Of a stretch of DNA of 64,000 nucleotides, positions 5,151-36,383 are shown piece by piece. The position numbers and the translations under genes are program-made. The stretch is from Polychytrium aggregatum. Its lineage: Eukaryota > Chytridiomycota > Chytridiomycetes > Polychytriales. The DNA lies in contig NW_026516217.1 in the NCBI RefSeq assembly GCF_025602895.1, positions 806,001-870,000 of the forward strand. Reading direction: 5' to 3'. How positions within the stretch are numbered: position 1 is the stretch's first letter; each line of letters starts with the position of its first letter. The notes beneath the pieces were generated by a model. It did not search any database, was not told the origin of the DNA, and was given only the letters and a program-made list of their open reading frames with translations.

Positions 5151-5522
5151 TGAGGAATAGCATAATGGTCGTACTGTAAAATGATGGTCCGGGGTATCGA
5201 CGTCATGTGGGGGCTGGCCCTGGCACCATGGCGGGAAGAGCACATCCTACAGGAGTGATTGGTGGCGGGTTTTGGCGGGTTGGCTTTGGCGCCCTGGGTT
5301 TTGGCGGGCTGGGTTTTGGCGGGATTCCTGGCCCATAAATTCGGCTCGTTCTGATGGTGCTGATTGCTCTCCAGGCAGTTGGGCAGCAGCAACACTCAAG
5401 ACCGTAACGTAAGTGCATTTCCTTCCGTGATGATACTCCATGCATGTCCGTGTGTCATGCTGTGCGATGGCTAACATGACTCGGCACCTCCAGTCTGCAC
5501 GTTCCATTCGCAGAAACCAAAA

Positions 5523-5861
5523 ATGACAATCGCAATCATGCTCATCCTGGCCTTCGTCCTCTGGCCCATTGCCCACTGCCTACTCCATACTGCCTCTTCT
5601 ACGGCCTATACTATCATTACCTACATTGCCTATATTACCTATATTACCTGCTATCATCCGGCACAAACCATCCTATCCATCGCATTCCGCGATTACTACG
5701 CGTCGCACGTCACTATCGACGCCTCAAGACATCCTTGCCCATCCATGGCACATCCGAGACCATTCCTGTCTCTATCGATCCACTCGAGCATCGCTCGCGA
5801 CACCAAGACCACCAAGCCCGATACTCTCCCGACTCAAATGGGAACCACTCCTGGAACATGA
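5523..5861 (+). CDS. Small hydrophobic hypothetical protein, left-arm copy
   Basis: A 112-codon frame opens with MTIAIMLILAFVLWPIAH, a strongly hydrophobic stretch like a signal peptide or membrane anchor, and continues with a second Ile/Tyr/Thr-rich hydrophobic run. It ends MGTTPGT. It lies convergent to NLR1, about 340 bp past its stop. A same-length partner with the same ending lies beyond NLR2 on the other arm (23716-24054), so the frame survived the divergence of the two arms. However, the differences I see are mostly amino-acid changing, so selection on the protein is unproven. No domain is recognised. An upstream exon with a donor near 5409 is possible. It may simply be part of the NLR 3' flank. 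Confidence 0.35.
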   Translation: MTIAIMLILAFVLWPIAHCLLHTASSTAYTIITYIAYITYITCYHPAQTILSIAFRDYYASHVTIDASRHPCPSMAHPRPFLSLSIHSSIARDTKTTKPDTLPTQMGTTPGT

Positions 5862-6198
5862 CTCTGTTGATTTGATATGATTTGATAAGCCCTCTGCCGC
5901 CGCCCATCACCAACTGGCACTTCAGTTGAGACCTCCAGCTCTGTCTGGAACCACCGTGGCTCCGGCCACATGCGAGACTGGTTCATTGGTCTTCGCTTCA
6001 ACGACCATCGCGGTCGGGTTTGAACGAAAATCTGGCGGCGGCAGAGGCGGACCTATGCCCAAATTCACACGGCATACGGACACTGTATTCGATATTTCGC
6101 ATGCAATACATTCCAATTGCACTTGCGTTCTTCCCACACTACTTGCGGGACCACTTGAACAGACCCTTCGGTTTGGCTTGTTCTTCGGTGACTCAAGC

Positions 6199-9100
6199 TT
6201 ACTCATCGACTGCTGTTCTTGCCACTTCGAAAGCGGGAGTGATGGCTGGTCGAGCTTCGATGTATCTGGCAACCTCGGCTTGAATCTCTGGGGTGTTGAG
6301 GTAGATTGGCTGTGGTGGTAGGAGTGTTAGTTGAGGGACTGGAGGAGTGGTGACAAGTGGCTGGACTTACCAGGATGATGACTGGACGGGATGGGAAGAT
6401 ATTGCTCATCACGAAATGTACTCCAGATGGGAGAGTGAACTTCCAATCACCGACGAGGGCGTGTGGGACCTTGGTGATGTGGCTGCCATGACGGATCCAC
6501 TGAGGTGCGTTGGTGATTTCGTTCCACTGGGACGATGCATGTGGGTTGGATGCGGCGGTAAAGCTGGAGGGATCCTCGTCGGATTGAACCCACTCGTCAC
6601 CACGACGGACCCAGAGGATTTGATTGCCACCCGATTGGCGAGACAGAATTGAGTTGCCATCAGGTGAGATCGCCACGGAGGTCACCCAGTCTGTGTGTCC
6701 CTCGAGGGTGTGCTTCAACTGGCCGGTGGTGGCATCCCACACCTTGATGGTATTGTCCATAGAGCCAGAGACAATCCACTTGCCATCGGGCGAGATCGCC
6801 ACGGAGTTCACACCACCTGTGTGTCCCTCGAGGGTGTGCTTCACCTGGCCAGTGGTGGCATCCCACACCTTGATGGTACTGTCACCAGAACCAGATACAA
6901 TCCAATTACCATCGGGCGAGATCGCCACGGAGTTCACCCAGTGTGTGTATCCCTCGAGGGTGTGCTTCAACTGGCCGGTGGTGGCATCCCACACCTTGAT
7001 GGTCTTGTCATGAGAGCCAGAGACAATCCACTTGCCATCAGGTGAGATCGCCACAGAGTTCACACTTCTTGTGTGTCCCTCGAGGGTGTGCTTCACCTGG
7101 CCTGTGGTGGCATCCCACACCTTGATGGTCTTGTCATGAGAGCCAGAGACAATCCACTTGCCATCAGGTGAGATCGCCACGGAGTTCACCCAGTGTGTGT
7201 GTCCCTTGAGGGTGTGCTTCACCTGGCCTGTGGTGGCATCCCACACCTTGATGGTATTGTCACCAGAACCAGATACAATCCAATTACCATCGGGCGAGAT
7301 CGCCACGGAGCGCACAATGTTTGTGTGTCCCTCGAGGGTGTGCTTCACCTGGCCTGTGGTGGCATCCCACACCTTGATGGTATTGTCACCAGAGCCAGAG
7401 ACAATCCACTTGCCATCGGGTGAGATCGCCACGGAGGTCACCCAGTCTGTGTGTCCCTCGAGGGTGTGCTTCAACTGGCCGGTGGTGGCATCCCACACCT
7501 TGATGGTATTGTCCATAGAGCCAGAGACAATCCACTTGCCATCGGGCGAGATCACCACGGAGGTCACACCCAGTGTGTGTCCCTCGAGGGTGTGCTTCAC
7601 CTGGCCAGTGGTGGCATCCCACACCTTGATGGTCTTGTCCTCAGAGCCAGAGACAATCCACTTGCCATCGGGTGAGATCGCCACGGAGGTCACCCTGCTT
7701 GTGTGTCCCTCGAGGGTGTGCTTCAACTGGCCAGTGGTGGCATCCCACACCTTGATGGTATTGTCCATAGAGCCAGAGACAATCCACTTGCCATCGGGTG
7801 AGATCGCCACAGACCAAGCAGAGTCTGTGTGTCCCTCGAGGGTGTGCTTCAGCTGACCTGTGGTGGCATCCCACACTTTGATGGTTTTGTCCTTTGACCC
7901 CGAGACAACAATCTTGCCATTGGGTGAGATCGCTACGGAGGACACCCAATTCGTGTGTCCAGTAATTGTCATCACACACGGATCCCAGGTGGGTGCTGGA
8001 CCGGCTGTGACCAGGAACGGGATCTTGTCCTCGAGTCGGTCGGCATATGCCCTGTAGATCGCCGTCTCCTTCGGTGTGAATGCATACCCCGAGTTGTACA
8101 CCTGTGGTGCACTCTTGATGATCGGGTCGGCAAACTCGCGGATAAATCGATACGTGTCCTTGACCAGTTCCTTCGTGGTGTCGTCGACGATGGTGCTGGG
8201 TGCTTTGGTGATCACTCCTCGGAGCACAGACAGTTGCTCGGCAATCTCCTGAATACGATGTGTGAGCGACCCACACTCGAGCCAGTAGAACACATGGGTC
8301 GACATGAATTGTCTGAAGAACGGGGCCAATTCTTCGAAGGATTGTGTCTCAAAGGGACCATCCAACTCAACACCATTGACCTTGGTACCCTCAATCAGAT
8401 GGGTGACCCAGTGGGCGACGCTGTATCGCAGCGACGGTGTGATCTTGTCTGCGACCCTGTCCTCGAGGTCAGGGATCTTGTCGTGAAAGTCGAAGATCTC
8501 GCAGATGTTGATCACCGGCTCGTGCGAGAGGATCACACCGAGACATCCCTTGGCAAACATCGTGTGGAACGAGCTCGACACATGCCACGGGTGGCCAGTC
8601 GATGCATCGCCGAGGAGATAGTCCGCCACCGACTTGTGGTTGAACTTGACCTCGCCATCGTCGGTGGAGCCATTTGCACCAGGAGCGAGAACCAAGTTGA
8701 GACTCCTCAGGCATTCGTGAACTATGCGGAGTGCATATCCCTCGGCCACGTTGCGGAAGAAGATCCCGGCAATCATATTGGGTGTGAGGATGGTCTGCGA
8801 TGTGGCGATGGCCGAGATCACGGTGATCAGTTCGCCCTTACGGCTCGACCCGGAGTGGATCTTGGTGAATGTGATCCCGTAGAGCTGCTTGACATCAGTG
8901 GCGCTGTCGTTGATCTCCCTGATCTTGTCGAGTGTGATGGCTTCGCTCTTGGCCTGCTCCTTGAGCGTGTTAAGGATCAGGTTGATCCACACGAATGTCT
9001 TGGACTGGTCCAGCAGGATGGCAACTGCCTCGGTTCGGTCCGAGTTAGTGAGAGTGCCGTGCACTAGCAGTCGGTGTCTGATGAATACCCTCAAGTCGGC

Positions 9101-11839
9101 GATATTCTCATCGCTCGAGGGCTCGATTGTTTTGGCATTCACTCCATGGAATGCTGCCTTGATGTCGTCCTCGGGACGGGATGTCAGCAGCAACTTGAGC
9201 CACGGACGGGTCTTGTTCAGCTCGACGAACCGCCAGGCAAGCAGACTGAGCAGCTGGTCGCGTGGAGAGCACTCGTCGAGTGCATCCACCAGGATCATCA
9301 CCGATCCCTTGGGTCTGTATTTGCCGATGGCTTCGAGTGGATCGGCAATCACGGCCTTGAACAACTCGGGGATGGACATCTTGTCGAGACTGTCCTTGGA
9401 GTGGCCAGCATCGAGCAGCTTGCGGCCGATCGGTGCGTACCACTGGCACAGGCCGTATGCGATCGTGCTCAGCACGGCCCGCGGATCGCTCTTGCGGGTG
9501 TCGTTGTACTTGAGGAACAGCGCCGACACCAGCTGGTTCTTGCCCCGGAGGAAGCTGGCCAGCTTGGCTGCGGCAACAGACTTGCCCACACCAGCAACGG
9601 CATTCACCCACAGGACAGTGTCTTTGGTGTCTTCGTTGACCCAGTGAGTGACTTGGTCGAACAGCCACTGGCGGGTACCCTCGACATACAGATCCTCAAG
9701 GTCGTGCTGGTCCTGGGTCGAGTCGACGGGATCGAGGAGGGATCGCAGGAGCGAGTCTTGTTCGGCGGTGAGGACGACACTGCCGCCTTGTGTGTACACG
9801 TCGCCCTCCTTGGCGGCAGTGGAAGTCTTTGTTATGAGCTCGTGAATATTGGGCACTAGTCTGTCGAATATCAAGAGTGTGAGATTGTATCGATAACATG
9901 ATATACAACAGTGATACGCTTACCTCCGCAGTGCGTTTCCGTCCGAGGCATCAAGAGCCTGTAGCTTCATCAGCTCGGCAAAAGTTTCACGGATCGACAT
10001 TGGCTTCCCATCGAACAACGGGCTCTTCTCGTGGATCGGAGGGTAGTCAGGGAGCTCTTTGATGGGCGGGAAGTACTTCTTCTGGAATGTCTCGCCATCG
10101 ATCTCTTTTGAATACCACATGAAAATTGGCTGGATGGTAACGGGGTTGCCACTCTTCTCGCCATCCTTCATTCTCTTGAGAGCGTGCTGGATCTATAGAC
10201 ACAATGGATGTGAGACTGCGAGTTTGAGGGTAAAGAGGGAGAAGTGAAGATACGTACCTCGAGAAATTGATTGTCTTTCTCATTGTGCGCGTTGTAGGTT
10301 TGATCGAGTCCAGCCTCGGAGAGAACTAGGACAATCACGTCCGATTGGTAGAGACCATTGATGAAACCTTGTTCCCAGGGCATGCCGTCACAGAGACAGA
10401 GACTGTCGAGATAGGGATGAAGTGCCATTTGGCCTCGCGGAGTGACAGCGAGGGTTCCATGCAGGGCAGTCGCATTGCTGGCGTCACTACGGACTCGGTA
10501 ACTGTGGGGGCACATGTTAGCTGGGTGAAATGACGTGGTTGCGAACGAATCGCCGCTTACCTGATGAAGACGTCGTGCTTCACATAGTGTGTTTTGCACT
10601 TCCAATTCTGGGTCGGTTCTGCCGGAGTGTACTCGCTTGGATCCAGGAGACGTTTGGGCGGAACAATAGTGGGTTTGGAAGGTTTTGGTGGCTCCTTTGG
10701 TTTATCGAGTCTGGGTGAACCATGCTTTTGTTGTGCAATTTTGAGTTTCATGATGGCACCATCATTCAGGCCGACCTTGGCAATCTGGATATCATCGAGA
10801 GCAAGGAGCTGTGGAGTGCAAGGGTCAGTAACGCACTTGGTTGATTCTATGGATGGTAAAGGATACCTACCACATCGACGGTGTCGTAATCGCGTTCCTC
10901 AAAACGGCCTTTGAATTTAGTGAGTCCGTTGTCCTCAAGGAATTTATGGAACGTATTCGAAGTATTGCGTAGTGGCTCCTCGTCTGAGGCGGTTGCTTCG
11001 ATAGGCTCTGTCTGAATGATATCGTTGACACTGGTTTGGTAATCTGGTGGTGGAGATGTCAGAATGTTGTCCAGGGGCGTTTCATCACCCTCCACTTTGA
11101 TATCCGATTTGGGTTGGGGAGTGGCTTCTTTGTCTTCAGTAACATTTGTTTGCTGGATAGTGGAAGTGGATGCTGGTGCCGGATTGGAACTGGAGGGGGA
11201 GGCAAGAGCTTGACGATGCCTTTCCTGCGCATTCTTGAGGGTTTTGATATGACCAATCTTCAAGCCAATATCCTTCATCTCTTTGCCATCTAAGGTGAGG
11301 AGCTATGGTGCACACGTTAGCAATGCGGGTCAAAGTACCGAGGATTGGAGCCGAGATCAAGCTTACTAATTCGATAGAATTCAATCCGTTTTCGATGAAG
11401 CAATCTCTTTGCTCATTGAGGCCATATTTCTTAAGGAATTCATCAAATTCTTTAGACTCCTCTGTCACTTCAGTTTCTTCGTCTTCATTAGAGGTCCTAA
11501 CGGTTTTGGATTGAATGTCGCCGGGTTCCTTGGTGTTAACTTGGTGGTTGTCATCTTTGGATCGAATGAGCGAGAGTCAGATCACATGACAAACCAATCC
11601 AATTCGAACCACACTGGATCCGTGGCTCGATCCAAGATCACTCCGATGACGGGGGTTCGATTCCCGACATCGCCATTTTACCGAGAAGTCGTCCTGGTTT
11701 ATCTCCAATCCACGACCATTATTGTTCAGAATCGATTCAGCAATCAACGACACTGACCTGGTGCTTGTTTCTTCTGGTGCAGCCACCAGAGGGACAGCAG
11801 TCCAACGAGGGCTGATATGACGATGATCCTTTGGAGCAT
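6199..11839 (-). CDS. NLR1: membrane-anchor/SAM-SAM-TIR-NACHT-WD40 receptor
   Basis: Eight exons (11758-11839, 11367-11554, 10871-11302, 10561-10808, 10258-10501, 9924-10192, 6371-9860, 6199-6309) join in phase to 1687 aa. Residues 1-27 are a membrane anchor (MLQRIIVISALVGLLSLWWL). Two SAM domains lie at about 63-121 and 206-264. TIR starts near 309 with DVFISYR, then LDSLCLCDGMPWEQGF. Glu398 in KDNQFLEIQHAL matches the SARM1 NADase glutamate. NACHT has Walker A NAVAGVGKS (574-582) and Walker B MILVDALDE (about 676-684). Eleven 42-residue WD40 repeats run about 1122-1570, the last degenerate. By family knowledge, WD40 ligand binding would drive NACHT oligomerisation and TIR NAD cleavage, giving cell death; this is inference. 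The protein ends early at TAA, losing a tail kept in NLR2. A TATAAA lies 54 nt before the ATG. Confidence 0.88.
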
Positions 11840-11893
11840 CGTGGATGAGATCAGGGCGATGGGGGAAATGGAGCGCGGGGGTTGGGTGGATGC

Positions 11894-11899
11894 TTTATA
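11894..11899 (-). promoter_or_regulatory. TATA box of NLR1
   Basis: TATAAA on the minus strand lies 54 nt upstream of the NLR1 start codon. The rest of 11840-12187 is GC-rich promoter DNA without other recognisable elements. Confidence 0.6.
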
Positions 11900-12187
11900 C
11901 TCCCCATCCCCGGGTGGATTGGGGACCCGAGCCCCCAAACTCGGCCAGAGTCGCGCGATGCGAAAGGGGAAGGACGGACGCCATCGACAAAGCAAAATGT
12001 AAAACACCTCGTCAAGTCGGATACAACGGTAAATGTCTGTGGATGGCGATAAGCTATCGAGCCGCACAGCACGAACCTGCTGCGCTGACAGGCGGTGCCA
12101 CAGGCATGGCACAAGCTGCGCGCGAACCCGATTGGATAGAATGGCCGACTTGGGCTCGGAGAGGGAGCGAGGGAAGCAAAGATCCGT

Positions 12188-12652
12188 TCAAGATAAGACT
12201 TGTCTCGAAATGAGACGTGAGGAACACTCAGAGAATAACGTAGAAGGCACTTTATTTAGTCCTATTTTGAACGCTGAGGTTCGACTACACATCGCGGGGG
12301 TCAGGCTATTTACAGGCAAGCCCGGACTAGGCAGCGATGGGCAGCCAAGGGAGGGAAAAGTGGGCGATCGAGCAGGGCGGTGCTTCTCAAGCCAGAGCCG
12401 GAATCGGTTCACTTTGGTGTCCAAAATGAAGTTTGCCTGCTTGCATACCAGTCGCAGATTCCCGATATCTGTGAGTGGAAGGGAGAACTGGAAGCTGTCG
12501 TTGCAGCATATGATGGTGAAGATGTCGGGGACAAAGCCCCGATGAGCCGACTGGACAGGGTTGAGGTTCGCGGGGCTTGTACCCGCACCGGCTAGGGCGA
12601 GGGCTCGGCGGGTCTGCGAGCGGGTCACTCGGCGCTCAGGAGGGCTCGCCAT
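12188..12652 (-). CDS. F-box-like hypothetical protein
   Basis: A single-exon frame of 154 aa starts MASPPERRVTRSQTRRALA and includes FVPDIFTIICC followed by LPLTDIGNLRLVCKQANFIL. The spacing of hydrophobics and the LRLVCK motif resemble an F-box helix bundle, though the usual LP-x-E start is missing. The C-terminal part is low in hydrophobics and may be non-coding. It lies upstream of NLR1 in the same orientation, about 240 bp past the end of the LINE-split gene. F-box proteins recruit substrates to SCF ubiquitin ligases; that role is not shown here. It could also be a decayed fragment of a longer gene. Confidence 0.4.
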   Translation of the reverse strand: MASPPERRVTRSQTRRALALAGAGTSPANLNPVQSAHRGFVPDIFTIICCNDSFQFSLPLTDIGNLRLVCKQANFILDTKVNRFRLWLEKHRPARSPTFPSLGCPSLPSPGLPVNSLTPAMCSRTSAFKIGLNKVPSTLFSECSSRLISRQVLS

Positions 12653-12889
12653 ATTGGCTGGATGGGAGATGGGAGATTGTCGCTGGAGCTGGGGAGGTAG
12701 GGGGAATCCGCATCCAACCCGAGACGAAGATCACCGAGCCTGTCCGAACCGCGGATCGAATCGGATCCAGCCGGTTCACGTGGTTGCCGGCAAGGATTCG
12801 ACCTGTCACTCGTCCTACAAGGACCGCCAAACACAAAGACTCCATGTCCCATCACCCAGAGTACATGTACACGGATCAAAGCAGTGTCT

Positions 12890-16300: not shown

Positions 16301-16814
16301 TGATAGCTGGTCTCTTCCGCCGTTTCTGCTGAGGGTTCAGCATGCTGAGGCGGGTGTTAAAGTCGCCCATGACAATGACCTGGGCGTGGGGTTTGCGACA
16401 TTGTTCCTTGATGGACTGCATCGCTCGCTTGAACTTGACTGTGTCCAGTCCCGGAGGCAGGTAGAAGCATCCGATGTATGTTCGGCTGCCGTACCTGATC
16501 CAGGTGAACAGGCCGTCCGGGTCTATCCCTTCGACGTTTAGATCGTTGGGATCGATGGTTTTGCTGTTGTATAGGATGGCGATGCCGCCACCCTTTCGGT
16601 CTGTTCGACGGTGTTCGACGACCGTCAGCTGCTTCCACGGGTTGGTCGCTCCGGGGTAGAGGAGCGTTTCCTGGGTGGCCAGGATGTCGACCTTGAGGTC
16701 TTCTATGAGGTTCTTGACAGCGGTTTGCCTCGCATGGAGGCCACGGACGTTGAAGGATGCGACGGTCAGCTCTGTCCGTAGAGCGCCGCCTCCTGTTGGG
16801 TTCTCACTTATCAT
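13308..16814 (-). CDS. LINE ORF2: APE endonuclease-reverse transcriptase
   Basis: Encodes the enzyme that nicks target DNA and reverse-transcribes the LINE RNA. The N-terminal AP-endonuclease-like domain shows SFNVRG, ATQET, MGDFNTR, STIDYIL and ESDHKPI. The reverse transcriptase shows YRPIGLTQTCRKIVE, FLDIKAAYDTVW, QGSVLSPLMFSAFIDDL and the catalytic WFADDGVLI. Near the C-terminus CKKCK and HAQTC make a CCHC knuckle. I place the start at ATG 16814, since ATGATAAGTGA overlaps the ORF1 stop and suits stop-restart translation; the frame is open further upstream, to 16874. No RNase H domain was recognised. The frame is uninterrupted at about 1168 aa from this start. Confidence 0.93.
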   Translation of the reverse strand: MISENPTGGGALRTELTVASFNVRGLHARQTAVKNLIEDLKVDILATQETLLYPGATNPWKQLTVVEHRRTDRKGGGIAILYNSKTIDPNDLNVEGIDPDGLFTWIRYGSRTYIGCFYLPPGLDTVKFKRAMQSIKEQCRKPHAQVIVMGDFNTRLSMLNPQQKRRKRPAIIMEDTIRTANMRVVAPIAVPTHTWTNGNQVSTIDYILVSRNLARPPPVLQVDSKRGYGESDHKPIWTKINIEPERYTKTDCWRWRIGMIRYPKVKGKYIRAFNAAKLGCTELMEQALTPIQQGSQIAISEAAAQKSMDDAWSIFKTTIDLIASETIGSASISPGRIEGTQGPEIRRLERERRCLSRMLAQTPEYDTEELDDLRRQLRSTRKAITQLKRKNGIRSWKESMATMDTQKCSEMTKTIGAMRTRKEREGSHLFDNSDPTLEKLVVHFGKVSSASQDSGTEYDRSITPPPLSTEATLLPPDKRLPEVSLEHIQVTIEKAPRRKATGSDKIKSEMLIPVAPVIAEWLRLIIMAALKASVVPSEWNSVLIHPVYKQKRSTLDPAMYRPIGLTQTCRKIVERIMLPFLAEQAGDMDVAQGGFRARRGALDQIVALDTLIKHHKMNGEEYSLIFLDIKAAYDTVWRERLWTKLKQRRMNGIALGFLKAMFDRVSIQMVSKGRRSKPVWLQKGLIQGSVLSPLMFSAFIDDLPRRLRDMGGTPLQGRNGATIKVNSLWFADDGVLICKPGQAQPLLNLCEAHSRRNRYRFSPPKCEVIFSDHCTDKQTGLRLYGQNLPETKIFKYLGAMIDVNGFRIDKQVDRMVTRTREAASNMAKMGLTLGNLTAKTLTIAYRTFLRPMMEYGLALDAIPKNEQKRLHRTQTLCLNLLFRTARTTSHGALHLNCGLPTMATRAKVLGIQCRARWEDVATHDDKMIALITRFIRSTAMKDQPYLGKPFYESIQWNLTCTRKEKNATFSMSMAFAKDDDSTTDRTQILSVKTLMLTHDAHTSFKRGQQLTAACTPRTKMSGVWTQLGPSIPRRLHVVMVWWRLGAFSGHPHGKYRLCKKCKRNGEGRIELSRSHAQTCVDEEDALDALVQGYKDIFTGWTEPETEGVGPIDKLLDMLGEVGKLENEEPIVGQAFNGLWTDLEQIFHTLMWRLAGWQARPGDIPEWDI

Positions 16815-18426
16815 TGGGGGTGATGGTTTCTGCGTCGCTGACGTCACCATTCTCGTTGTTTTCGTCTGCACCACTCAGGTCCATGAGTTCCGCGCAGTCG
16901 TTTGGGGTTTGGGGCCTATCCAGTTGGGTGGCCTCGATGCGGATGTCGCGGCGGTTGACCGTCTCTCCGTCAAGGATGGATCTGGCCAAGCGGTCAAACT
17001 CCTGGCGGTATGCCAGGGGAATCTGCATCTGGAGGCTCCTCTTGACCGTGAAGTCTTTGGTCCTCTTAACGCGGTTGAGGGACTGCAGCATGTGTGTCTT
17101 GAGCTGCTCTTTCTCATTCTCCTTAGTTTGGGACTTTTGGAGCTTCTTCTTGATGGGATCGTAGCCGGTCAGGAGACTCAGCTTCTTTCCCTTGTCGGTG
17201 GGGAGGTTGAGGATTTTGGAGAGGATCTCCTCCTTCTTTGCCGCGTCACGGATCAGGATCTCGATGACGTTATTCTCCGGGAACGAGATATCGGCGATCT
17301 CGCGGCTGGGGATGCCGATGCTCTGGAACGTCTTTCTGACGAGTCCGTAGGGGAGTCGCTGGATCCCTTTGACGTAGACCCACTCCATTCGGTTCACCTT
17401 CTCGCGGAGGGGCTCGTTGGTGATGCTGCTGTTGTTGATGTGGCCCGAGATCCAGGCCGGTCGCTTGGTGGCGCTGGGGACGATCTTCAACTCTATGTTG
17501 GGGACTCGTCCGGTGGTGAGGATACGGCCACACTCGGCCATCTTCTCGTTTCCAGAGAGGCTCTGGACGTGCTCTGTGGCCTTGGCGATGTTGGCCTTGA
17601 GAGCCTCGCTGTAGCTCATCATGGGCGGTTTGGACGCCGAGTCCTTCTTCTGGGTAGCCCTTTGGGGGGCTTTTTGTGCCTGTTCGGCTTTGATCTTCTC
17701 GATGACGTCTTCAACCGATTTGAGGGTGTCTTGGATGATCTCGATAGCGCCGGTAGACAGCTTGGCTTTGTCGGCGCTCTTGGCGAGCTTGGTTTGGAGG
17801 GCCTTGAGGGTTTCAAGGGCCGACAGATCTTCGTCGTCGCTTTCGCCGCAGCTGTCGCTCATGCTGCTGGTAAGGTCAATCTCGGGAGCGCCTGGTGTCA
17901 AGTCAGGCTTGATCCGTGCATAGGCAGCGGCGCATTTTCTGTTGAACCCCTCGATGATGGCTTGATCTGTGCTGTGGAGGAGCTCTTCCGCCCTGGCGGC
18001 GGTGCCTCTGGACATAGCGGCCCAGGCGTGGAAGCAGGTCATCTTGAAGTGTCCGTACTTCTCTTCGCATCCTCTGCTGCAGATGCGGTGGCCTTTCTCG
18101 TCGATTGTTGACGGTGCACCGCAGTACACGCACTCGGGGGTGACGAGGAGGTGTCGGGTGGCCCAGAAGAAGAGCTCTGCAGGGACTTGTTCGAGGGGGA
18201 TCTGCTCGAGCACCTCTCTCTGTTCTTCTTCATTTCTGCTTGTCCAAAGAGCAGCAGCGATGGTTCCTATGTCGATCTGGCCTTGGGGAGGGGGGGTGGA
18301 GGGGAGGGGGGCTGGAGGGGGAGAGGGAGATTGGGGGGGCCGGAACTTGACAGAGGTGTTCGCTATGCGTCCTCGTTTGAGCTGGATTACAGTTGGCTTG
18401 GCATTCTTGGAGGTCCTGCCCGCCAT
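16804..18426 (-). CDS. LINE ORF1: putative nucleic-acid-binding protein
   Basis: A 540-aa frame beginning MAGRTSKNAKPTVIQLKRG, with a Pro-rich stretch and then a Cys/His cluster (CVYCG, ICSRGCEEKYGHFKMTC, about residues 98-130) that could bind zinc. The central part is Lys/Glu-rich and probably helical. A C-terminal half with ISFPENNVIEILI could be an RRM- or transposase-22-like fold, which I cannot confirm. It precedes ORF2 in a different frame and its stop TGA lies inside ATGATAAGTGA. ORF1 proteins coat the LINE RNA and escort it to the target. Confidence 0.88.
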   Translation of the reverse strand: MAGRTSKNAKPTVIQLKRGRIANTSVKFRPPQSPSPPPAPLPSTPPPQGQIDIGTIAAALWTSRNEEEQREVLEQIPLEQVPAELFFWATRHLLVTPECVYCGAPSTIDEKGHRICSRGCEEKYGHFKMTCFHAWAAMSRGTAARAEELLHSTDQAIIEGFNRKCAAAYARIKPDLTPGAPEIDLTSSMSDSCGESDDEDLSALETLKALQTKLAKSADKAKLSTGAIEIIQDTLKSVEDVIEKIKAEQAQKAPQRATQKKDSASKPPMMSYSEALKANIAKATEHVQSLSGNEKMAECGRILTTGRVPNIELKIVPSATKRPAWISGHINNSSITNEPLREKVNRMEWVYVKGIQRLPYGLVRKTFQSIGIPSREIADISFPENNVIEILIRDAAKKEEILSKILNLPTDKGKKLSLLTGYDPIKKKLQKSQTKENEKEQLKTHMLQSLNRVKRTKDFTVKRSLQMQIPLAYRQEFDRLARSILDGETVNRRDIRIEATQLDRPQTPNDCAELMDLSGADENNENGDVSDAETITPNDK

Positions 18427-18551
18427 CTCTGGCTTTGAGCTTAGCGGTGTGGTTTATCTGTTGGTGTGTGTATTCTCTCTCGCTCAGAATCCCGCAAAAT
18501 CGAGATCAGGTGAGAGTCCTGTGGAGTGGGATGCAATCATCGACGGGAAGC

Positions 18552-18812: not shown

Positions 18813-21800
18813 ATGGAAGTACCAGACTCGCCGCCGTCGCACGATCAAGCCATGGTCGCACTAGGTGAGGGTCGCTACATGCGAAACACAAAGGTCTCGA
18901 ACTGGAGCTTGGGTTGTTACCTGGGGACCGTTGTGTGCTAGGAGGTGTCGCTGGACGAGGGGAAACGGCATTGGGATGTTGGGATAGCTGTGGCTTGGGC
19001 AAGTTGGTGTAACGGTTATTCCGCCCGGTTTGTCATGTGATCTTGTACTCACCATGTGATCCATTCACACGTGATGGTATCCACAGAACAAGGTGATTCA
19101 CACGGAACCAGTGAGAAATTACACACCAATGAGATGAACGAGGACCTCTTGGCCTTTGCAGAGTTTCTTCAAAAATACTACTTGGTCAAATACAAGCAGC
19201 TCCTCATAGACAATGACTACGACACCATCGACTCGGTATGTACCCCTGATATTGAGGATGCGGTTGTTGGCCATATTCTAATTCAATTTACAAGACAGAT
19301 TCTGCGGATGTCCGAGGATGAGATGAAGGGGATTGACCTCAAGCCTGGTGCAATCAACAAGATCAAGAATGCCAAGGCGGATTATGAGAACTCTCGAGGC
19401 AAAGACGAGAAGAAGCCAAACGCAACAAAACGCGAGATCCAACAGCCCCAGCGAGTCTTGCAGCCAGAGGAGTACTATCCGGCAGTACCCACACAACATT
19501 GGGAGTGTCAAAGCCATTTTGAAGAGCACCATGTTTTCATCAGGTTCGTGGTTTCTCGGCCCAAACTGTGCGATTCAATTCCATCCAATTAACGCCTGTT
19601 CCCACAGTTACCGAGCCCGAAGTGATGCCGGTAATGCCACGACTCTGCATGGAACCCTCGCTGTCACTCCGCGTGGCCAAATGGCACTTCATCCCTATCT
19701 CGACAGTCTCTGTCTCTGTGACGGCATGCCCTGGGAACAAGGTTTCATCAACGGTCTCTATCGATCCAACGTGATTGTCCTGATCCTCTCTGAGGCTGGA
19801 CTAGAGCAGACCTACAACGCTCAGAACTTCAAGGACAACCAGTTTCTCGAGGTAAGTGCGTCTGAATGCATATAACTGGATTGTATTTGGAAACTCACCT
19901 ATCCTGTGAATGCAGATCCAACATGCTCTCAAGAGAATGAAGGATGGTGAGAAGAGTGGACAATCTGTCATCATCCAGCCCATCTTCATGTGGTCCACCA
20001 GAGAGATTGATGGCGAGACATTCCAGAAGAAGTATTTCCCGTCGGTCAAAGAGTTCCCTGACTTCACCCCGATCCATGAAAAGAGTCCGTTGTTCAACAA
20101 CAAACCAATGTCGATCCGTGAAACCTTTACTGAGTTGATGAAGCTACAGGCCCTCGATGCTGCGGATGGAAACGCTCTCAAGAGGTGAGATCATCAAATC
20201 CACAAGTGAAACGGTTGATACAATCTCACACTATTGATATTCCACAGACTGGTCCCCAATATTCGTGAGCTCATAACAAAGACTTCCATTGCCGACAAGC
20301 AAGGCGATGTGTACACACAAGGCGGTAGTGTCGTCCTCACCGCCGAACAAGACCACGCCTTGCGATCCCTCCTCGACCCTGTCGACTCCTCTTCCGACAG
20401 AAGGGCACTCGAGGATCTGTATGTCGAGGGTACTCGCCAGTGGCTATTCGACCAAACGACTGAGTGGGTCAACCAGGACACCACCGACACTGTCCTGTGG
20501 GTCAATGCCGTTGCTGGTGTCGGCAAGTCTGTCGCTGCCGCTCAGGTCGCCAACATCCTCACAGCCACCAACCAGCTGGTGTCGGCGCTGTTCCTCAAGT
20601 ACAACGACACCCGCAAGAGCGATCCACGAGTGGTGCTGAACACCATCGCATACGGTCTGTGCAAGTGGCACTCGCCGATCGGCCGCAAGCTGCTCGATGC
20701 TGGTCACTCCAAGGACAGTCTCGACAAGATGAGCATCCCCGAGCTGTTCAAGGCCGTGATTGCCGATCCACTCGAAGCCATCGGCAATTACAGACCCAAG
20801 GGATCAGTGATGATCCTGGTGGATGCACTCGACGAGTGCTCTCCGCGCGACCAGCTGCTCAGTCTGCTTGCCTGGCGGTTCGTCGAACTGAACAAGACCC
20901 GTCCGTGGCTCAAGCTGCTGCTGACATCCCGTCCCGAGGAGGACATCAAGGCAGCATTCGATGGAGTCCCGACCAAGACGATCGAGCCCTCGAGCGAGGA
21001 GAACATCCGTGACCTCGAGGTGTACATCCGCCACCGACTGCGAGTGTATGACACTCTCAGTGACTCGGACCGCACCGAGGCAGTCGCCATCCTGCTGGAC
21101 CAGTCCAAGACATTCGTGTGGATCAACCTGATCCTCAACACCGTCGACGCAGCATCCAAGGACGGCCCAGTGACACTCGCCACGATCAAGGACATCAACG
21201 ACAGCGCCGCCGATGTCGGGCAGTTGTACAACAAGACATTCGCCAAGATCCACTCGCAGTCGAGCCACCCGGCCGAGTTGGTCACGGTGGTGTCGGCCAT
21301 CGCCACGGCCCAGTCGATCCTGACACCGCAGATCATCGCCGATGTGTTTGGACTCGAGATCGGCGTCGTTCGCGAGTGTCTCACGAGCCTCAGCCTGGTC
21401 CTCGATCCTGGCGCCAATGGATTGGGTCCCCGAGGCAGCCAGTCCACCAACACCGAGGTCAAGTTCAACCACAAGTCGGTGGCGGACTATCTCCTCGGCG
21501 ATGCATCGGCTGGCCATCCGTGGCATGTGTCGAGCTCGTTCCACACGGTGTTTGCCAAGGGATGTCTCGGTGTGATCCTCTCGCACGGGCCAGTGGTCAA
21601 CATCTGCGATATCTACGACTTTCACGACAAGATCCCTGACCTCGAGGACAGGGTCGCAGACAAGATCACACCGTCGCTGCGATACAGCGTCGCCCACTGG
21701 ATCACACACTTTGTGTGGTGTGTGGAAGAAGTGGCCGAGTCGAGTCCGGTGTGGCAGTCGGCCGAGACTGTCGATGTGGCTGTGGTGCTCACTCGGTTCG

Positions 21801-23438
21801 TCAAGACGCATGTGTTCTTCTGGCTCGAGTGTGGATCGCTCACACATGTGGTCAAGCCGATCATCGAGCAACTGGCTGTGCTGCGAGGAGTGGTCGTCAA
21901 GGCACCCAGCACCATCATCGACGACACCACGAAGGAACTGGTCAAGGACACGTATCGATTCATCCGCGAGTTTGCCGACCCGATCATCGCGAGTGCACCA
22001 CAGGTGTACAACTCGGGGTATGCATTCACACCGAAGGAGACGGTGATCTACAAGACATATGCCGACCAGCTCGAGGACAAGATCCCGTTCCTGGTCACTT
22101 GCGGTCCAGCACCCACCTGGGATCCGTGTGTGATGACAATTACTGGACACACGAATTGGGTGTCCTCCGTAGCGATCTCACCCAATGGCAAGATTGTTGT
22201 CTCGGGGTCAAAGGACAATACCATCAAGGTGTGGGATTCCACCACTGGCCAGCTGAAGCACACCCTCGAGGGACATACAAACCTTGTGAACTCTGTGGCG
22301 ATCTCACCCGATGGCAAGTGGATTGTCTCTGGCTCAGGAGACAATACCATCAAGGCGTGGGATGCCACCACTGGCCTGTTGAAACACACCCTTTGGGGGG
22401 GGGGACGCACAAGAAGTGTGAACTCCGTGGCGATCTCACCCGATGGCAAGTGGATTGTCTCTGGCTCTGAGGACAAGACCATCAAGGCGTGGGATGCCAC
22501 CACTGGCCAGCTGAAGCACACCCTCGAGGGACACACAGACAGGGTGTTCTCCGTGGCGATCTCACCCGATGGCAAGTGGATTGTCTCTGGCTCCAGTGAC
22601 AATACCATCAAGGTGTGGGATTCCACCACTGGCCAGCTGAAGCACACCCTCGAGGGACACACAGACAGGGTGTTCTCCGTGGCGATCTCACCCGATGGCA
22701 AGTGGATTGTCTCTGGCTCCAGTGACAATACCATCAAGGTGTGGGATGTCGTCACAGGCCAGGTGAAGCACACCCTCAGGGGACACGCAAACTATGTGAC
22801 CTCCGTGGCGATCTCACCTGATGGCAACTCAATTCTGTCTCGCCAATCGGGTGGCAATCAAATCCTCTGGGTCCGTCGCGGTGACGAGTGGGTTCGCTCC
22901 GACGAAGATCCCTCCAACTTTACCACCGCATCCAACCCACATGCATCGTCCCAGTGGACCCAAATCGACCGACGCAGCGCTCGCCAATGGATCCGCCATG
23001 ACATCCACACCACCAAGGTCCCACACTCCCTCTTTGGTGATTGGAAGTTCACTCCATCCGGCGGGGTTGTGTTTTGGTCCCATGAAACACCCCACCACCC
23101 AGTCATCATCCTGGTAAGTCCAGCCACCTGTCACCACTCCTCCAGTCCCTCAACTAACCCTCCTACCACCACAGCCAATCTACCTCAACACCCCAGAGAT
23201 CCGAGCCGAGGTTGCCAGATACATCAAAGCCAAACCAGCCGTCGCAGCAGGGTTTGAAGAGGCGAGAGTAAGAGCCGAAGAGCAAGCACGAATCGCCGAA
23301 GAAGCACGACTCGCCGAGGAACAAGCACTAATTGCAGAACAAGCACGAATTGCAGAACAAGCACGACTCGCCGAGGATGCCCGAATCGCGACAGTAATAG
23401 CCAAATGGATGGGTCTGTTCAAGTGGTCCCGCAAGTAG
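18813..23438 (+). CDS. NLR2: SAM-TIR-NACHT-WD40 receptor with coiled-coil tail
   Basis: Seven exons (18813-18864, 19087-19235, 19299-19543, 19608-19851, 19916-20184, 20248-23113, 23175-23438) join in phase to 1362 aa. One SAM domain lies at about 40-97. TIR starts near 141 (HVFISYR) with Glu230 in KDNQFLEIQHAL at the SARM1 catalytic position. NACHT Walker A ends GVGKS (410-414) and Walker B is MILVDALDE. Six WD40 repeats follow, one preceded by a G10 tract (22395-22404) that turns the usual LEGHT linker into LWGGGRT. The last exon encodes an Ala/Glu-rich coiled coil with IAEQAR-type repeats ending WMGLFKWSRK. Exons 4 and 5 match NLR1 exons 5 and 6 exactly in length (244 and 269 bp). There is no membrane anchor. 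Predicted role as for NLR1: a cytosolic NADase-type immune or incompatibility receptor. Confidence 0.88.
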
Positions 23439-23715
23439 TGTGGGAAGAACGCAAGTGCAATTGGAATGTATTGCATGCGAAATATCGAATACAGTGTCCG
23501 TATGCCGTGTGAATTTGGGCATAGGTCCGCCTCTGCCGCCGCCAGATTTGCGTTCAAACCCGACCACAATGGTCGTTGAAGCGAAGACTAATGAACCAGT
23601 CTCGCGTGTGGCCGGAGCCACGGTGGTTCCAGACAGAGCTGGAGGTCTCAACTGAAGTGCCAGTTGGTGATGGGCGGCGGCAGAGGGCTTATCAAATCAT
23701 ATCAAATCAACAGAG

Positions 23716-24054
23716 TCATGTTCCAGGAGTGGTTCCCATTTGAGACGGGAGAGTATCGAGCTTGGTGGTCTTGGTGTCGCGAGCGAGGCTCGGATGGATC
23801 GGATGTGCCATGGATGGTCTCGGATGTGCCATGGATGGGCAAGGATGTCTTGAGGCGTCGATAGTGACGTGCGACGCGTAGTAATCGCGGAATGCGATGG
23901 ATAGGATGGTTTGTGCCGGAAGATAGCAGGCAATATAGGTAATATAGGCAATGTAGGTAATGATAGTATAGGCCGTAGAAGAGGCAGTATGAAGTAGGCA
24001 GTGGGCAATGGGCCAGAGGACGAAGGCCAGGAGGAGCATGATTGCGTTTGTCAT
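23716..24054 (-). CDS. Small hydrophobic hypothetical protein, right-arm copy
   Basis: A 112-codon frame that is the counterpart of 5523-5861. It starts MTNAIMLLLAFVLWPIAH and ends MGTTPGT. It is convergent with NLR2 and separated from its stop by about 280 bp of shared flank. A run of residues in the second half differs (SMAHPI against FLSLSI), from a local repeat of CCATGGATG-type units. No domain is recognised. The frame can be opened further upstream (MPVCTFHSQKPK), which may be an upstream exon boundary. Confidence 0.35.
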   Translation of the reverse strand: MTNAIMLLLAFVLWPIAHCLLHTASSTAYTIITYIAYITYIACYLPAQTILSIAFRDYYASHVTIDASRHPCPSMAHPRPSMAHPIHPSLARDTKTTKLDTLPSQMGTTPGT

Positions 24055-25052
24055 TTTTGGTTTCTGCGAATGGAACGTGCAGACTGGCAATGCCGAGTCA
24101 TCATGTTAGTCATCGCACAGCATGACACACGGACATGCATAGAGTATCATCACGGAAGGAAATGCACTTACGTTACGGTCTTGAGTGTTGCTGCTGCCCA
24201 ACTGCCTGGAGGACAAACAGCACCCTCAGAACGAGCCGAATTTATGGGCCAGGAATCCCGCCAAAATCGACGCGCCAAATCCCAGGGCGCCAACACCCAC
24301 CAACACGAATCACTCCTGTAGGGTGTGCTCTTCCCGCCACTGGTCCTGCCAATCATGCCCGGCACTGCGGCGAATGGGGTGGATGCCATACCAGTGATTT
24401 CCATCTCTGCCCTGATCTCAACCTCCACCCGCGCTCCATAGTAGGATATTGATCCGGAGATGCTCGGGTATATCCATTTTCCCTCCACAATCCGTGAGTT
24501 GTACGCTCTTGTGTATTAGATTCCTGGATTCATGGAGAGGGTGTGTCGGGGTTGTGTATTAGTTTTTGAATGGAGTGAGTGTTATTTGTACCTTCTTTGG
24601 TGCTCAAGGAGTGATGTTGTCGAGTGAGGGTGTGGTTGTGTCAGTGCTGTGTATTAAAAATGAGTTTCGTGGAGTGGGAACTTGTCGTCGTTGCCAGCTA
24701 CCCTCAAAATACAGAAAATTCAAAAAATTTCATTGTCGATCCTGGCCAGAGGTTTCAGCCAGATCATCCAGGACCCATGGAGTGAGACGGGTTTCAGAGC
24801 GATCGGGGTCACTCCATGAACCATGGAGACGTTTCGGGTCGTGTGTATTAGAGTGGATCAGCCGTGCATTAGGTCTCGAGTGGGCGTGCATCAGGACGAC
24901 GGATTTCTGCATTAGATATGGAGTGGGCTGTATATTAGATACCCAATATCTCTGTCAAGACTGGACAACGGGGCAAGCAGGGAAGTGCGCAAGAGTCCTA
25001 ATGCAAGACTCGAACGTAGGGAGAGGAGCGGGGACTGGACTGGGACACAGAG
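24055..25052. other. Intergenic region up to the first retrotransposon
   Basis: Up to about 24330 this matches the outer flank of the left arm (5232-5500). Beyond that it is unique sequence with eight scattered GTGTATTAG/GTGCATTAG-type motifs between 24511 and 24940. No convincing gene was found; a 176-codon plus-strand frame at 24566 lacks an ATG start and any domain. Confidence 0.5.
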
Positions 25053-25146: not shown

Positions 25147-25455
25147 TGTAGGAGATGGTATCTCCGACGCTGTGCTGCGCGTACTGCGCGTACTGCGCGG
25201 CGCAGTGGGTCGTGACCTGTGCTGCGCTTTGCGTTTTCACGCACCGCAGGCAGGCCACCGCAGGGTATACCTGCGGGTTGCCCCCGTTCCCCCCGTTTGT
25301 CTGGAGTTCGGTTTTATCGTGAATAAACGTAAGTGCTCCCCGAGCTCACCCGTCCGCTAGAGTAGCCTAGCACCGCCCTGTTCTGCCCCGTCCTGTCTTG
25401 TCTTGTACCCCCTCCCTCCCCGTCTTGCCCCAACGTCCCAGTAGTGGACGTTACA
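25147..25455 (+). repeat. Gy1-b 5' LTR
   Basis: 309 bp, TGTAGGAG...GTTACA. It carries a TGCGCGTACTGCGCGTAC tandem near its start, an AATAAA near 25321, and AACGTCC...GGACGTT as a terminal inverted repeat. Confidence 0.95.
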
Positions 25456-32262: not shown

Positions 32263-32292
32263 GTCCGAGTGGCCGTGATGAAGCCAACCAAG
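32263..32292 (+). repeat. 30-bp duplication flanking Gy1-c, right copy
   Basis: Exact repeat of 26766-26795; Gy1-b pol resumes at 32293. Confidence 0.95.
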
Positions 32293-35200
32293 ACCAAGTG
32301 TCGCCCGTTCCCCCAAGTCAAGTCATGGTGCAGGAGGCTGTGCAGGAGGACCATGAAGAGTCCCTGCTGTACCTCCCTGCCACCGTCCAAGGTCACACCG
32401 TCCGAATGATGGTGGACTCTGGAGCAAGCTGCAACTTTGTCAGCAGACGCTTGCTCCAGGAGCTCAACATACATGCAACCAAGAAGAAGTCGCCGATGAG
32501 TGTGGCGCTTGCAGACGATCGTGTGCAGCAGTGCACACACCAAGTGGTCCTGCGAGTGGCCCTCCATCCCAAGTACCATCCTGTCCTGTTGTTCCAAGTG
32601 ATCGACACCAAGTTCGATGCCATCCTCGGCATGAGCTGGCTTGCTCGTGCCGAGCCGACTCCAGTCGTCGACTGGAAAGGCCGCACTGTCCGTGTTGGCC
32701 CTGACATTGTCCTGCAGGGCATGGCCTCACCCAACATGCCACCTCTCCTCTCAGCCATGCAATTCAAGAGGCTGATCAAGAAGGACACGTCGTTCCTCTG
32801 TGTCGTGCGTGAGGTCGACGACACCGACCAAGCCGGTCCCGGTCCCCCGCCTGTGGTGACCAAGCTGCTCGACGAGTACAAGGACGTATTCCCCGACCAG
32901 TTGCCACAATGCCTGCCACCCCAACGCACCGTCGATCATCGCATCGACATCGAACCAGGCTCGTCGCCTCCGTCAAGACCGACGTACCAACTGTCGCTGA
33001 CGGAGATGGACGAACTCAAGCGCCAGTTGGATGACCTCCTCGCCCATGGGTTCATCCGCCCGAGCCAGTCACCGTATGGTGCACCAGTGCTCTTTGTCAA
33101 GAAGAAAGAAGGTGATCTCAGGATGTGCGTCGACTATCGCGCACTAAACAAACAGACCATCAAGAACACCTACCCGTTGCCCAGGATCGACGAGTTGATG
33201 GATCGTCTGAGTGGAGCAAAGGTCTTTAGCAAGATAGACCTCCGCTCAGGCTACCATCAGATCCGCATCCACGAGGATGATGTCCACAAGACCGCCTTCA
33301 GGACTCGCTACGGACTGTACGAGTTCCTAGTGCTGCCGTTCGGATTGACGAACGCACCTGCCACGTTCATGCAGCTGATGAACGATGTGTTCCGCCAAGA
33401 GCTCGACAACTCTGTCATCGTGTACCTGGATGATATCCTTGTGTACAGCAAGGATGAAGCGACCCATGAAGGTCATGTCGCCCGCGTGCTGGCCAAGCTA
33501 CGCGAGCACAAGTTGTATGCCAAACTGTCCAAGTGTGAGTTCTTCAAGAATCAAGTCCCGTTCCTGGGACACGTTGTCTCAGGAAGAGGAATCGAAGTCG
33601 ACCCCGCCAAGGTCAAGTCTGTGGTCGAGTGGCCGCCGCTCGCATGCGTCTCTGACGTGCAGTCGTTTCTCGGTCTCGTCAACTACTACCGCCGATTCAT
33701 CCCCGATCTGGCGCGCACTGCCGGTCCACTCACAGACCTACTCCGCAAAGAGTGCCCCTTCGTGTGGGACCACCCACAACGCCAAGCGTTCGAGACCCTC
33801 AAGCACGCCTTGACGAACGCTCCTGTCCTCGCTGTGTTCGACCCGAACACGGATGTCTCCGTGCACACCGACGCCTCCGACTTTGCGGTGGGAGCTGTTT
33901 TGATGCAGGAGGGAAGGCCCGTTGCCTTCGAGTCGCGCAAACTGTCCCAACACGAGATCAACTATCCCGTGCACGAGAAGGAGCAGCTTGCGATCATCTA
34001 CGCGCTGCAGAAGTTCCGAGTGTACCTCCACGGTACCGCCAAGCCCTTCAAGATTGTGACGGACCACCAGTCACTGCGTTACCTCGACACCAAGAAGAAC
34101 CTGAGCCGACGCCAAGCGCGATGGATGGAGTTCCTCGCCGAGTACAACTACGAGGTTGTATACCAGAAAGGCAAACTCAATGTGGTGCCTGACGCACTGT
34201 CCCGACGCCCCGACTACCAATTGGCGTCACTGTACGAGTCGACTGTCAGTGTCGACAACACGATGCTGGATGTTGTCCGAGACAACATCGCCAACGACAA
34301 ACAGTTCGGAGAACTGTTCCGAAAGGTGTCTAAGCTCCCCAAGGACGACGAATCATCCGAGTACACAGTGCGTGATGGCCTGCTCCTCCTGAAGAAGGAC
34401 AGCCGTGTCTGTGTGCCGGACATTCCGTCGTTGAAGACCAAGTTGCTCCAAGAGGTCCACGACTCGCCCCTCGCTGGACACTTTGGAGTCGAGAAGACAT
34501 ACGACCGACTGGCCAAAGTCGCATACTGGCCTGGAATGAAGCGCACCGTCGAGAAGTACATCGAGTCCTGCCATACCTGCAAGATGGTCAAGTCACGCAC
34601 GACCCGAGAGCAAGGATTGCTGCAACCCCTGCCTGTTCCCGACCGCCCCTGGACCAGCATGTCCATGGATCTCATCACGCATCTACCGACGACCAAGTTG
34701 GACCACGATGCAATCGCTGTCTTTGTCGACAGGTTCAGCAAGATGGCACACTTTGTGCCGTGCCAGACGACATGCTCCGCGCCTGACCTTGCACTGCTGT
34801 TCTTCAAGCATGTGTTCAAGCACCACGGCCTCCCAAAGTCCATCGTCAGTGATCGAGACCCCCGATTCACCTCCTTGTTTTGGACAAGTCTGTTCGACCA
34901 TCTCGGCACCAAGCTGAACATGTCAACCTCGCACCACCAACAAACGGATGGACAGTCCGAGCGGACGATCCGCACCCTCGAGCAATACCTGAGGACATAC
35001 GCCTCGACCAGCCAAGACGACTGGGACATACAGCTGAGTCATGCAGAGTTTGCATACAACACCGCCAAGTCGAGCACAACTGGCTTGAGCCCCTTTGAGG
35101 CGCTCTACGGATTCCAGCCTGATGTTCCCACCTCCTTGACACTGACCGAGTCCACGGCTGGATTGCCTCCCAAACCAAGTGCCTTTGTCAAAGATCATCA

Positions 35201-35792
35201 AGTCCGACACAAGATGATCGCCGACGCGCTCACGGATGCGCAACAAGTGATGGCGAAGTACTACGACCGCCGACACCAGGATGTCTCCTTTGAAGTTGGA
35301 GACCTTGTCTACCTGGACGCCGACAACATCAAGGTCCCCGAAGCCCAGTCAAAGAAGTTGTTGCCCAAGTACCGAGGACCGTTCAAGATAGCGGCCCGAC
35401 CCAGTCCCCTCAACTACCTGTTGGACTTGCCACCTGGAAGCAAGCTCCATCCTGTCTTCCATGTGTCCAAGCTGCGTCGCCACACGACCCGCAGTCCAGC
35501 ACAGTTCCCCGACGCCGACGAAGGTGTCCCGGACGACGCACCACTGGAAGACGACCTCGGACAATACTATACTCAAGAATATGAAGTCGAAAGGATCGTG
35601 AGGCACAAGAAAGTGGCTGATGGGTCACTTCGGTTTTATGTCAAGTGGGTTGGTTACCCACACTCGGGCAACACATGGCAAACACTGGAGGACTTGTCCC
35701 ATGCACCCGAGGAGCTGAGTAAATACGGTAAACACCTCGAGGAGCCCCAAATAAAGAGCACACGCAGGGCTCCTCGCAGGAAGCCTTCTTAA
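32293..35792 (+). pseudogene. Gy1-b pol, 3' fragment
   Basis: From [13 protein letters not shown] to the chromodomain and RRAPRRKPS stop, all catalytic motifs are present (DSGAS, YLDD, TDASDF, integrase DDE). It is separated from gag only by Gy1-c. The frame is also open back into the Gy1-c LTR, which could give a fortuitous N-terminus but no proper Gag fusion. Confidence 0.93.
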
Positions 35793-35801
35793 GTGTGGGA
35801 G

Positions 35802-36110
35802 TGTAGGAGATGGTATCTCCGACGCTGTGCTGCGCGTACTGCGCGTACTGCGCGGCGCAGTGGGTCGTGACCTGTGCTGCGCTTTGCGTTTTCACGCACC
35901 GCAGGCAGGCCACCGCAGGGTATACCTGCGGGTTGCCCCCGTTCCCCCCGTTTGTCTGGAGTTCGGTTTTATCGTGAATAAACGTAAGTGCTCCCCGAGC
36001 TCACCCGTCCGCTAGAGTAGCCTAGCACCGCCCTGTTCTGCCCCGTCCTGTCTTGTCTTGTACCCCCTCCCTCCCCGTCTTGCCCCAACGTCCCAGTAGT
36101 GGACGTTACA
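35802..36110 (+). repeat. Gy1-b 3' LTR
   Basis: 309 bp, TGTAGGAG...GTTACA, followed by the GGGTA duplication at 36111-36115. Confidence 0.95.
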
Positions 36111-36115
36111 GGGTA

Positions 36116-36374
36116 CAAGACAAGACAGGACGGGGCAGAACAGGGCGGTGCTAGGCTACTCTAGCGGACGGGTGAGCTCGGGGAGCACTTACGTTTATTC
36201 ACGATAAAACCGAACTCCAGACAAACGGGGGGAACGGGGGCAACCCGCAGGTATACCCTGCGGTGGCCTGCCTGCGGTGCGTGAAAACGCAAAGCGCAGC
36301 ACAGGTCACGACCCACTGCGCCGCGCAGTACGCGCAGTACGCGCAGCACAGCGTCGGAGATACCATCTCCTACA
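36116..36374 (-). repeat. Gy1-a 3' LTR, main piece
   Basis: Reverse complement of the first 259 bp of the Gy1 LTR. Together with 25097-25146 it makes 309 bp. The GGGTA at 36111-36115 is the second copy of the duplicated target. Confidence 0.94.
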
Positions 36375-36383
36375 CTCCCACAC

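Follow-up and report, generated by a model that had tools for sequence, protein, structure and literature searches.

Can a fungus have joined the effector core of SARM1, the animal protein responsible for the death of injured nerve fibres, to a receptor of the HET-E type within a single gene? This question is raised by a locus of the chytrid Polychytrium aggregatum, which we analysed in a stretch of 64,000 nucleotides (nt) (assembly GCF_025602895.1, contig NW_026516217.1, positions 806,001 to 870,000 of the forward strand; hereafter 'the window'). The window lies in a contig of 941247 bases (C57) of the genome set G000, which comprises 64.7 Mb in 418 contigs. On the minus strand, at window positions 11839-6199, eight exons splice into a single open frame that encodes, in this order, a hydrophobic leader, two SAM domains, a TIR domain, an ATPase of the NPHP3_N/NACHT type and 11 WD40 repeats. 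Domain order in the DNA and its recurrence, purifying selection on exon 1 and the TIR, a conserved TIR glutamate, SARM1 as the nearest solved structure and hypervariable WD40 positions were all read directly. We consider it reasonably likely that the gene belongs to a chytrid-expanded family of fungal NOD-like receptors (NLRs) of NACHT-WD40 layout, which carries a SAM-TIR effector and whose TIR cleaves nicotinamide adenine dinucleotide (NAD+); judged by sequence, its product is a probable non-self receptor. The gene is real and well-formed, and a preliminary description of it was right on architecture and SARM1 affinity, but too strong on uniqueness and on equivalence to SARM1.

That description gave the correct coordinates and the correct number of exons, the strand being unstated. 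Besides the ATG, exon 1 (11758-11839) holds a short hydrophobic leader, MLQRIIVISALVGLLSLWWLHQKKQAP, with a hydropathy maximum of 2.1 over 17 residues, which is possibly a membrane anchor. Eight aligned copies of the gene, from three sequence groups, agree in a TATA-like box that precedes the ATG by about 60 nt, in the ATG itself and in the donor of intron 1 (CAG/GTCAGTG, the slash marking the splice site). The ratio of nonsynonymous to synonymous substitution rates (dN/dS) of exon 1 was 0.18, 0.08 and 0.13 in comparison with the copies on contigs C24, C46 and C101, respectively, and 0.47 for a partial match of 19 codons on C20. Exon 1 looks coding and under purifying selection, and was retained in the gene model because it is conserved across copies. 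The six introns joining exons 2-8 measure 59-65 nt each, have GT..AG ends and leave no stop after splicing, while intron 1 is longer (203 nt with an acceptor at 11554). This acceptor (CCAAAG/ATGAC) yields the described protein of 1687 amino acids (aa) with the putative catalytic glutamate at position 398; however, no AG is present at the site in four copies of the C24 group. The acceptor AG followed by TTAACACC, from which the exon starts at 11539, was found in all eight copies, and its junction is in frame in six of six translated copies. Given this conservation in sister copies, we take 11539 as the revised start of exon 2 in place of 11554, which changes the length to 1682 aa and the glutamate to Glu393. 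On the plus strand of intron 1, a T-arm-like 13-mer, GGGTTCGATTCCC (11653-11665), had raised the suspicion of a tRNA gene; ARAGORN and Rfam (gathering threshold) found none, and the stretch amounts to one chance-level match of 13 bases.

The remaining exons, all on the minus strand, distribute the domains as follows. Exon 2 (11367-11554, or from 11539 by the conserved acceptor) carries the first half of SAM1 (11228-11459), which is split by the intron at 11303-11366, and exon 3 (10871-11302) holds the end of SAM1, a linker and the start of SAM2 (10740-10963), itself split by the intron at 10809-10870. The end of SAM2, a second linker and the start of the TIR (HDVFIS) lie in exon 4 (10561-10808). 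The TIR region (9860-10598, residues 305-488 of the 1687-aa model; TIR_2 core at 10130-10571) extends over exons 4-6, with the putative catalytic glutamate codon (10258-10260) as the final codon of exon 5 and the second half of the domain in exon 6 (9924-10192). Exon 7 (6371-9860) encodes the NACHT module, a helical region and the WD40 array, and exon 8 (6199-6309) the C-terminal tail and the stop codon. Profile searches with Pfam placed SAM1 above the cut-off (SAM_2, 1.7e-5, 25.4 bits vs 20.5) and SAM2 just below (SAM_1, 4e-4, 21.1 bits vs 23). The ATPase (9176-9679) was matched above the cut-off by NPHP3_N (1.5e-28) and below it by NACHT (0.0047), and WD40 matches occurred in 11 stretches. 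Motifs read in the protein are DVFISYR, DNQFLE, GVGKS and VMILVDALDE, the last two being Walker A (9578-9601) and Walker B (9272-9301), both of which are expected of a fungal NLR ATPase. A NACHT fold was modelled in the relative P0009 and a tandem SAM fold in P0063, a public P. aggregatum gene model that reads leader-SAM-SAM-TIR and hence supports the leader and the SAM pair. At the level of the gene model, an N-terminal effector and a C-terminal repeat sensor thus reside in one protein. No HET domain was matched by Pfam in the SAM and TIR fragments, a scan that did not take in two linkers separately; for the whole protein, the best 25 of 66 families were listed. Pfam, splicing and the TIR family profile described below agree on two SAM domains, TIR, NACHT and WD40 in one spliced protein, as first described.

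How close is the TIR to that of SARM1? A family profile built from 12 TIR sequences and searched against PDB retrieved nothing but SARM1 or TIR-1 at E<=10 (19 distinct sequences, best 1.1e-4), and placed the family glutamate on the SARM1 catalytic glutamate. The preliminary alignment of Glu398 with the NAD-cleaving residue of SARM1 is borne out by this result. TIR_2 was recognised at E<=1 in 12 of the 12 members of the family alignment (best 5.7e-9). The glutamate is kept in 19 of 20 spliced family TIRs and also in proteins of Chytriomyces and Entophlyctis, and dN/dS of the TIR exons was 0.07-0.25 where both rates were computable and above zero, which indicates purifying selection. By its nearest solved structure, the TIR is classed as of SARM1 type.

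Several observations weigh against an NAD-cleaving TIR in this protein. The window TIR itself stays below the Pfam cut-off (TIR_2, 9.3e-5, 23.3 bits vs 28), and when it alone was searched against PDB with phmmer, the two matches obtained (E 1 and 1.3) did not include SARM1. No confident AlphaFold model was obtained for the TIR of P0063, and among the matches listed in fold searches with the models of P0063 and P0009, none was clearly to a TIR domain. The pocket tryptophan of SARM1 (WxxxE) is replaced by asparagine in 12 of 12 aligned family TIRs, and copy C57b has glutamine at the glutamate position. The glutamate codon closes an exon (GAG/GT), so that the splice donor may explain part of its conservation, and some family copies contain stops in a TIR exon (e.g. 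C57:39187-39459). The frequency of the conserved TIR glutamate is reported not always to match activity (PMC7075850), and a conserved glutamate alone is no proof of activity. The sub-threshold assignments of SAM2 and the TIR are nevertheless backed because relatives pass the cut-offs (P0063 for both SAMs, P0009 for TIR_2) and by the TIR family profile. The family copy at C57:275100-277300 (L049) reads DSLLLQ, with glutamine for the putative catalytic glutamate, and its TIR is possibly inactive. In the C112 copy (L028:1369-1503), the intron at the TIR glutamate measures 138 nt and contains a microsatellite readable as His-Ser repeats; it has 132 nt in C407.

With SARM1 and TIR-1, the chytrid protein shares the tandem SAM before the TIR, the nearest solved TIR and the aligned glutamate. 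It differs in that SARM1 has an ARM autoinhibitory lock, whereas just 59 residues precede SAM1 in the chytrid protein, and in that the TIR is C-terminal in SARM1, but internal and followed by NACHT-WD40 here. The chytrid TIR family is many-copy, while SARM1 is typically present once per genome (PMC7075850). In a fold search, the modelled SAM pair of P0063 was closest to Caskin1, and the SARM1 SAM pair matched the same model only at a Foldseek E of about 0.2-0.5. Because the pocket tryptophan is an asparagine and the ARM lock is absent, we regard the module as SARM1-like rather than as a SARM1. The initial designation as the SARM1 effector core therefore stands for the SAM pair, the SARM1 affinity and the glutamate, whereas full equivalence claims too much. 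One account we consider unlikely, yet the most serious competitor: the TIR would be a non-enzymatic assembly domain, and TIRs clustered by the NACHT would recruit other TIR or SAM proteins, with a separate effector as the killer. TIRs of the TLR type act by assembly and Caskin1 is a scaffold protein, so the affinity of the P0063 SAM pair and the lost tryptophan fit this idea. Against it stand the nearest solved TIR, which is that of an enzyme with no other TIR family at E<=10, and the retention of the glutamate in all but one of the 20 TIRs.

The preferred reading, a receptor with an NAD-cleaving TIR, gains from the recurrence of the gene across the genome. A search with the SAM-SAM-TIR part gave at least 143 matches (the best 92 of 303 candidates scored), which were grouped by hand into at least 62 TIR loci; near-identical copies are taken separately in these counts, and distinct genes are fewer. 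NPHP3_N follows within 2 kb downstream on the same strand at 61 of the 62 loci (at 244-278 nt in 40 of the 61), C114:56798-57106 being the only locus without it. Conversely, a TIR lies upstream at 56 of the 90 full-length NPHP3_N places of the genome. On C112, the second half of the TIR and the NACHT share one open frame without splicing, which shows the TIR-NACHT fusion at the DNA level. The SAM part is more variable. Two SAMs were found at C57, C301 and C68 and at C24, C161, C125 and C374, which form two sequence groups, and C46 has SAM2 with part of SAM1. There is one SAM at C72, C366, C59 and in a second gene of the window, and none that is convincing at C112. At nine of ten further loci, a single SAM-like match, weak in some cases, precedes the TIR; C407 has none. 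One SAM or none is thus present at 15 of the 23 loci examined. A six-frame genome search with SAM_2 missed the SAM-TIR family, probably because introns split the SAMs. Repeated at many loci of the genome and present in Chytriomyces as well, the domain order is not, on sequence grounds, a chance arrangement.

The sensor part points in the same direction. The array (6635-7957, minus strand) consists of ten near-identical repeats of 42 aa and a degenerate eleventh, and varies mainly at repeat positions 3, 4, 6, 22 and 24, with the His of GH as position 1, and to a lesser extent at position 36. In codon comparisons of the 45 pairs among the ten repeats, which are not independent events, the five positions showed 182 nonsynonymous vs 5 synonymous differences, and the other 37 codons 104 nonsynonymous vs 202 synonymous differences. 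In Podospora, WD40 codons 7, 9, 25 and 27 are under strong positive selection and flank the consensus codons 8 and 26 (PMC1805685). Positions 4, 6, 22 and 24 have exactly this spacing and flank Val5 and Asp23. The sister copy on C68 is 98.5% identical to the window DNA over 9368-12794 and 89-90% identical further downstream; its array counts ten repeats, of which the last is degenerate and the first two carry insertions, and its residues at the variable sites are mostly different. The proposed NACHT-WD40 sensor-switch layout is confirmed by the NPHP3_N/NACHT and the hypervariable repeats. HET-E, HET-D and HET-R (HNWD) of Podospora anserina likewise combine NACHT with near-identical WD40 repeats whose diversifying contact positions have the same spacing, but carry a HET effector where the chytrid protein has SAM-TIR; the HET domain is only remotely similar to TIR (PMC4986451).

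Might such a multitude of copies be largely relics of a duplicated repeat family rather than expressed receptors? Near-identical copies, an inverted duplication in the window and the stops in a TIR exon of some copies would agree with this. In a search with the NACHT exon, 62 of 7996 scored proteins passed E<=0.001, and none of the 62 was named Polychytrium; the public annotation may lack the Polychytrium NACHT genes. We consider decay of the family improbable, as frames are open, splice sites and the TATA-like box are conserved, exon 1 and the TIR are under purifying selection, and the diversifying pattern is concentrated at the WD40 contact positions. The nearest named protein in the NACHT-exon search came from Chytriomyces, more distant named matches from Chytridium and Entophlyctis. 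That SAM/TIR and NACHT/WD40 are two adjacent genes, with the fusion an artefact of a model spliced by hand from DNA alone, is very improbable even though P0063 ends inside the TIR, given the canonical intron at 9861-9923, the NACHT downstream at 61 of the 62 loci, the single frame across the junction on C112 and fused protein models in Chytriomyces and Entophlyctis.

Such fused relatives bear on uniqueness. Protein P0006 of Chytriomyces sp. MP71 (BC830DRAFT_1141173, 1513 aa) has the same order of two SAM, TIR, NPHP3_N and WD40, the SAMs and TIR being read from the alignment and the listed Pfam rows being WD40 and NPHP3_N; it begins without a hydrophobic leader. For P0004 of C. hyalinus (HDU78_009105), the precomputed Pfam row lists SAM_2, TIR_2, NPHP3_N and WD40; this protein differs in that its WD40 array is followed by another SAM-TIR module, which may stem from fusion with an adjacent gene. 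Identity to the window protein in the NACHT region is 45% for P0006 and 49% for P0004, and both are named only hypothetical. The domain set is, as far as sequences tell, not unique to the window, and the earlier statement that no described fungal receptor with the full set is known is too strong in view of P0006, an unnamed protein. A search of 5.8 billion proteins with the SAM-SAM-TIR region gave none at E<=0.01, which carries little weight because the database holds P0006 with this region. An alignment search yielded three short proteins.

Parts of the architecture have precedents. NLRs with TIR in Chytridiomycota were mentioned in 2022, cited from the work of others (PMC9815663), where SAM_Ste50p is listed among NLR N-termini and SARM1 is mentioned, and TIR-like effectors of Pezizomycotina and TIR on fungal NLRs are reported (PMC9815663, PMC10197012). 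These resemble the chytrid protein in a TIR effector on a fungal NLR; in the excerpts compared, which do not include the primary reports, a SAM pair, SARM1 affinity or sensor hypervariability is not linked to them. Our literature search on SAM, TIR and NACHT in fungi and on TIR NLRs of Chytridiomycota, which did not extend to subscription journals or to a book chapter of 2020 about fungal NLRs, found no title or start of an abstract with the full architecture.

But, how might such a receptor work? Under the favoured reading, the WD40 propeller with its variable contact face would bind a non-self or altered-self ligand, and the NACHT ATPase would switch and oligomerise, both steps following the fungal NLR model. 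SAM domains would help to stack the chains, and active sites would arise in the clustered TIRs, where the conserved glutamate would serve to cleave NAD+; the cell might then be killed or arrested, or a nucleotide signal be made, the last steps following the SARM1 model. The receptor is presumably expressed, and its leader would probably anchor it at a membrane. For an amoeba TIR NADase, domestication is reported to require a transmembrane helix at the N-terminus. More tentatively, and with less confidence, we suggest that chytrids may have built a class of membrane-anchored NLRs with a SARM1-type, NAD-destroying TIR with SAM stacking as killer and a HET-E-type WD40 array as rapidly renewed sensor, which would unite the animal axon-death effector core with a fungal self/non-self sensor in one protein, at tens of loci in one species. 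For chytrids, a survey of 2014 reports no NLRs (PMC4986451); the chytrid genome analysed here has 90 full NPHP3_N places, and a SARM1-like TIR lies upstream of 56 of these. Should the TIR cleave NAD+, fungal receptors would possess a direct SARM1-type step, and a small, expressible domain would offer a way to test NAD-mediated killing by fungal NLRs. Judging from the WD40 pattern, HET-E-style sensor turnover would also extend beyond Dikarya.

The second family member of the window lies at 19041-23438 on the plus strand, inverted with respect to the first, and was delineated by tblastn, open reading frames and repeats. It comprises one SAM, TIR, NACHT and five WD40 repeats with a degenerate sixth; 19041 is the start of the open frame rather than an assigned start codon, and its TIR splices without stops. 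The inverted duplication relates 5225-10634 to 19470-24344, with 93.9% identity in the downstream flank and 83-85% in the gene. Further along, at 25147-54802, nested direct and inverted repeats of 99.7-100% identity include a tandem unit of 1649 bases at 25147, a palindrome of 7.65 kb (32263-39913) and a unit of 5.4 kb that occurs at 26795 and 49334 and, inverted, at 36111; they may be an assembly effect or a mobile element. Between the two genes, at 16804-18453, a minus-strand open frame of 549 aa with a Cys/His-rich stretch possibly originates from a mobile element.

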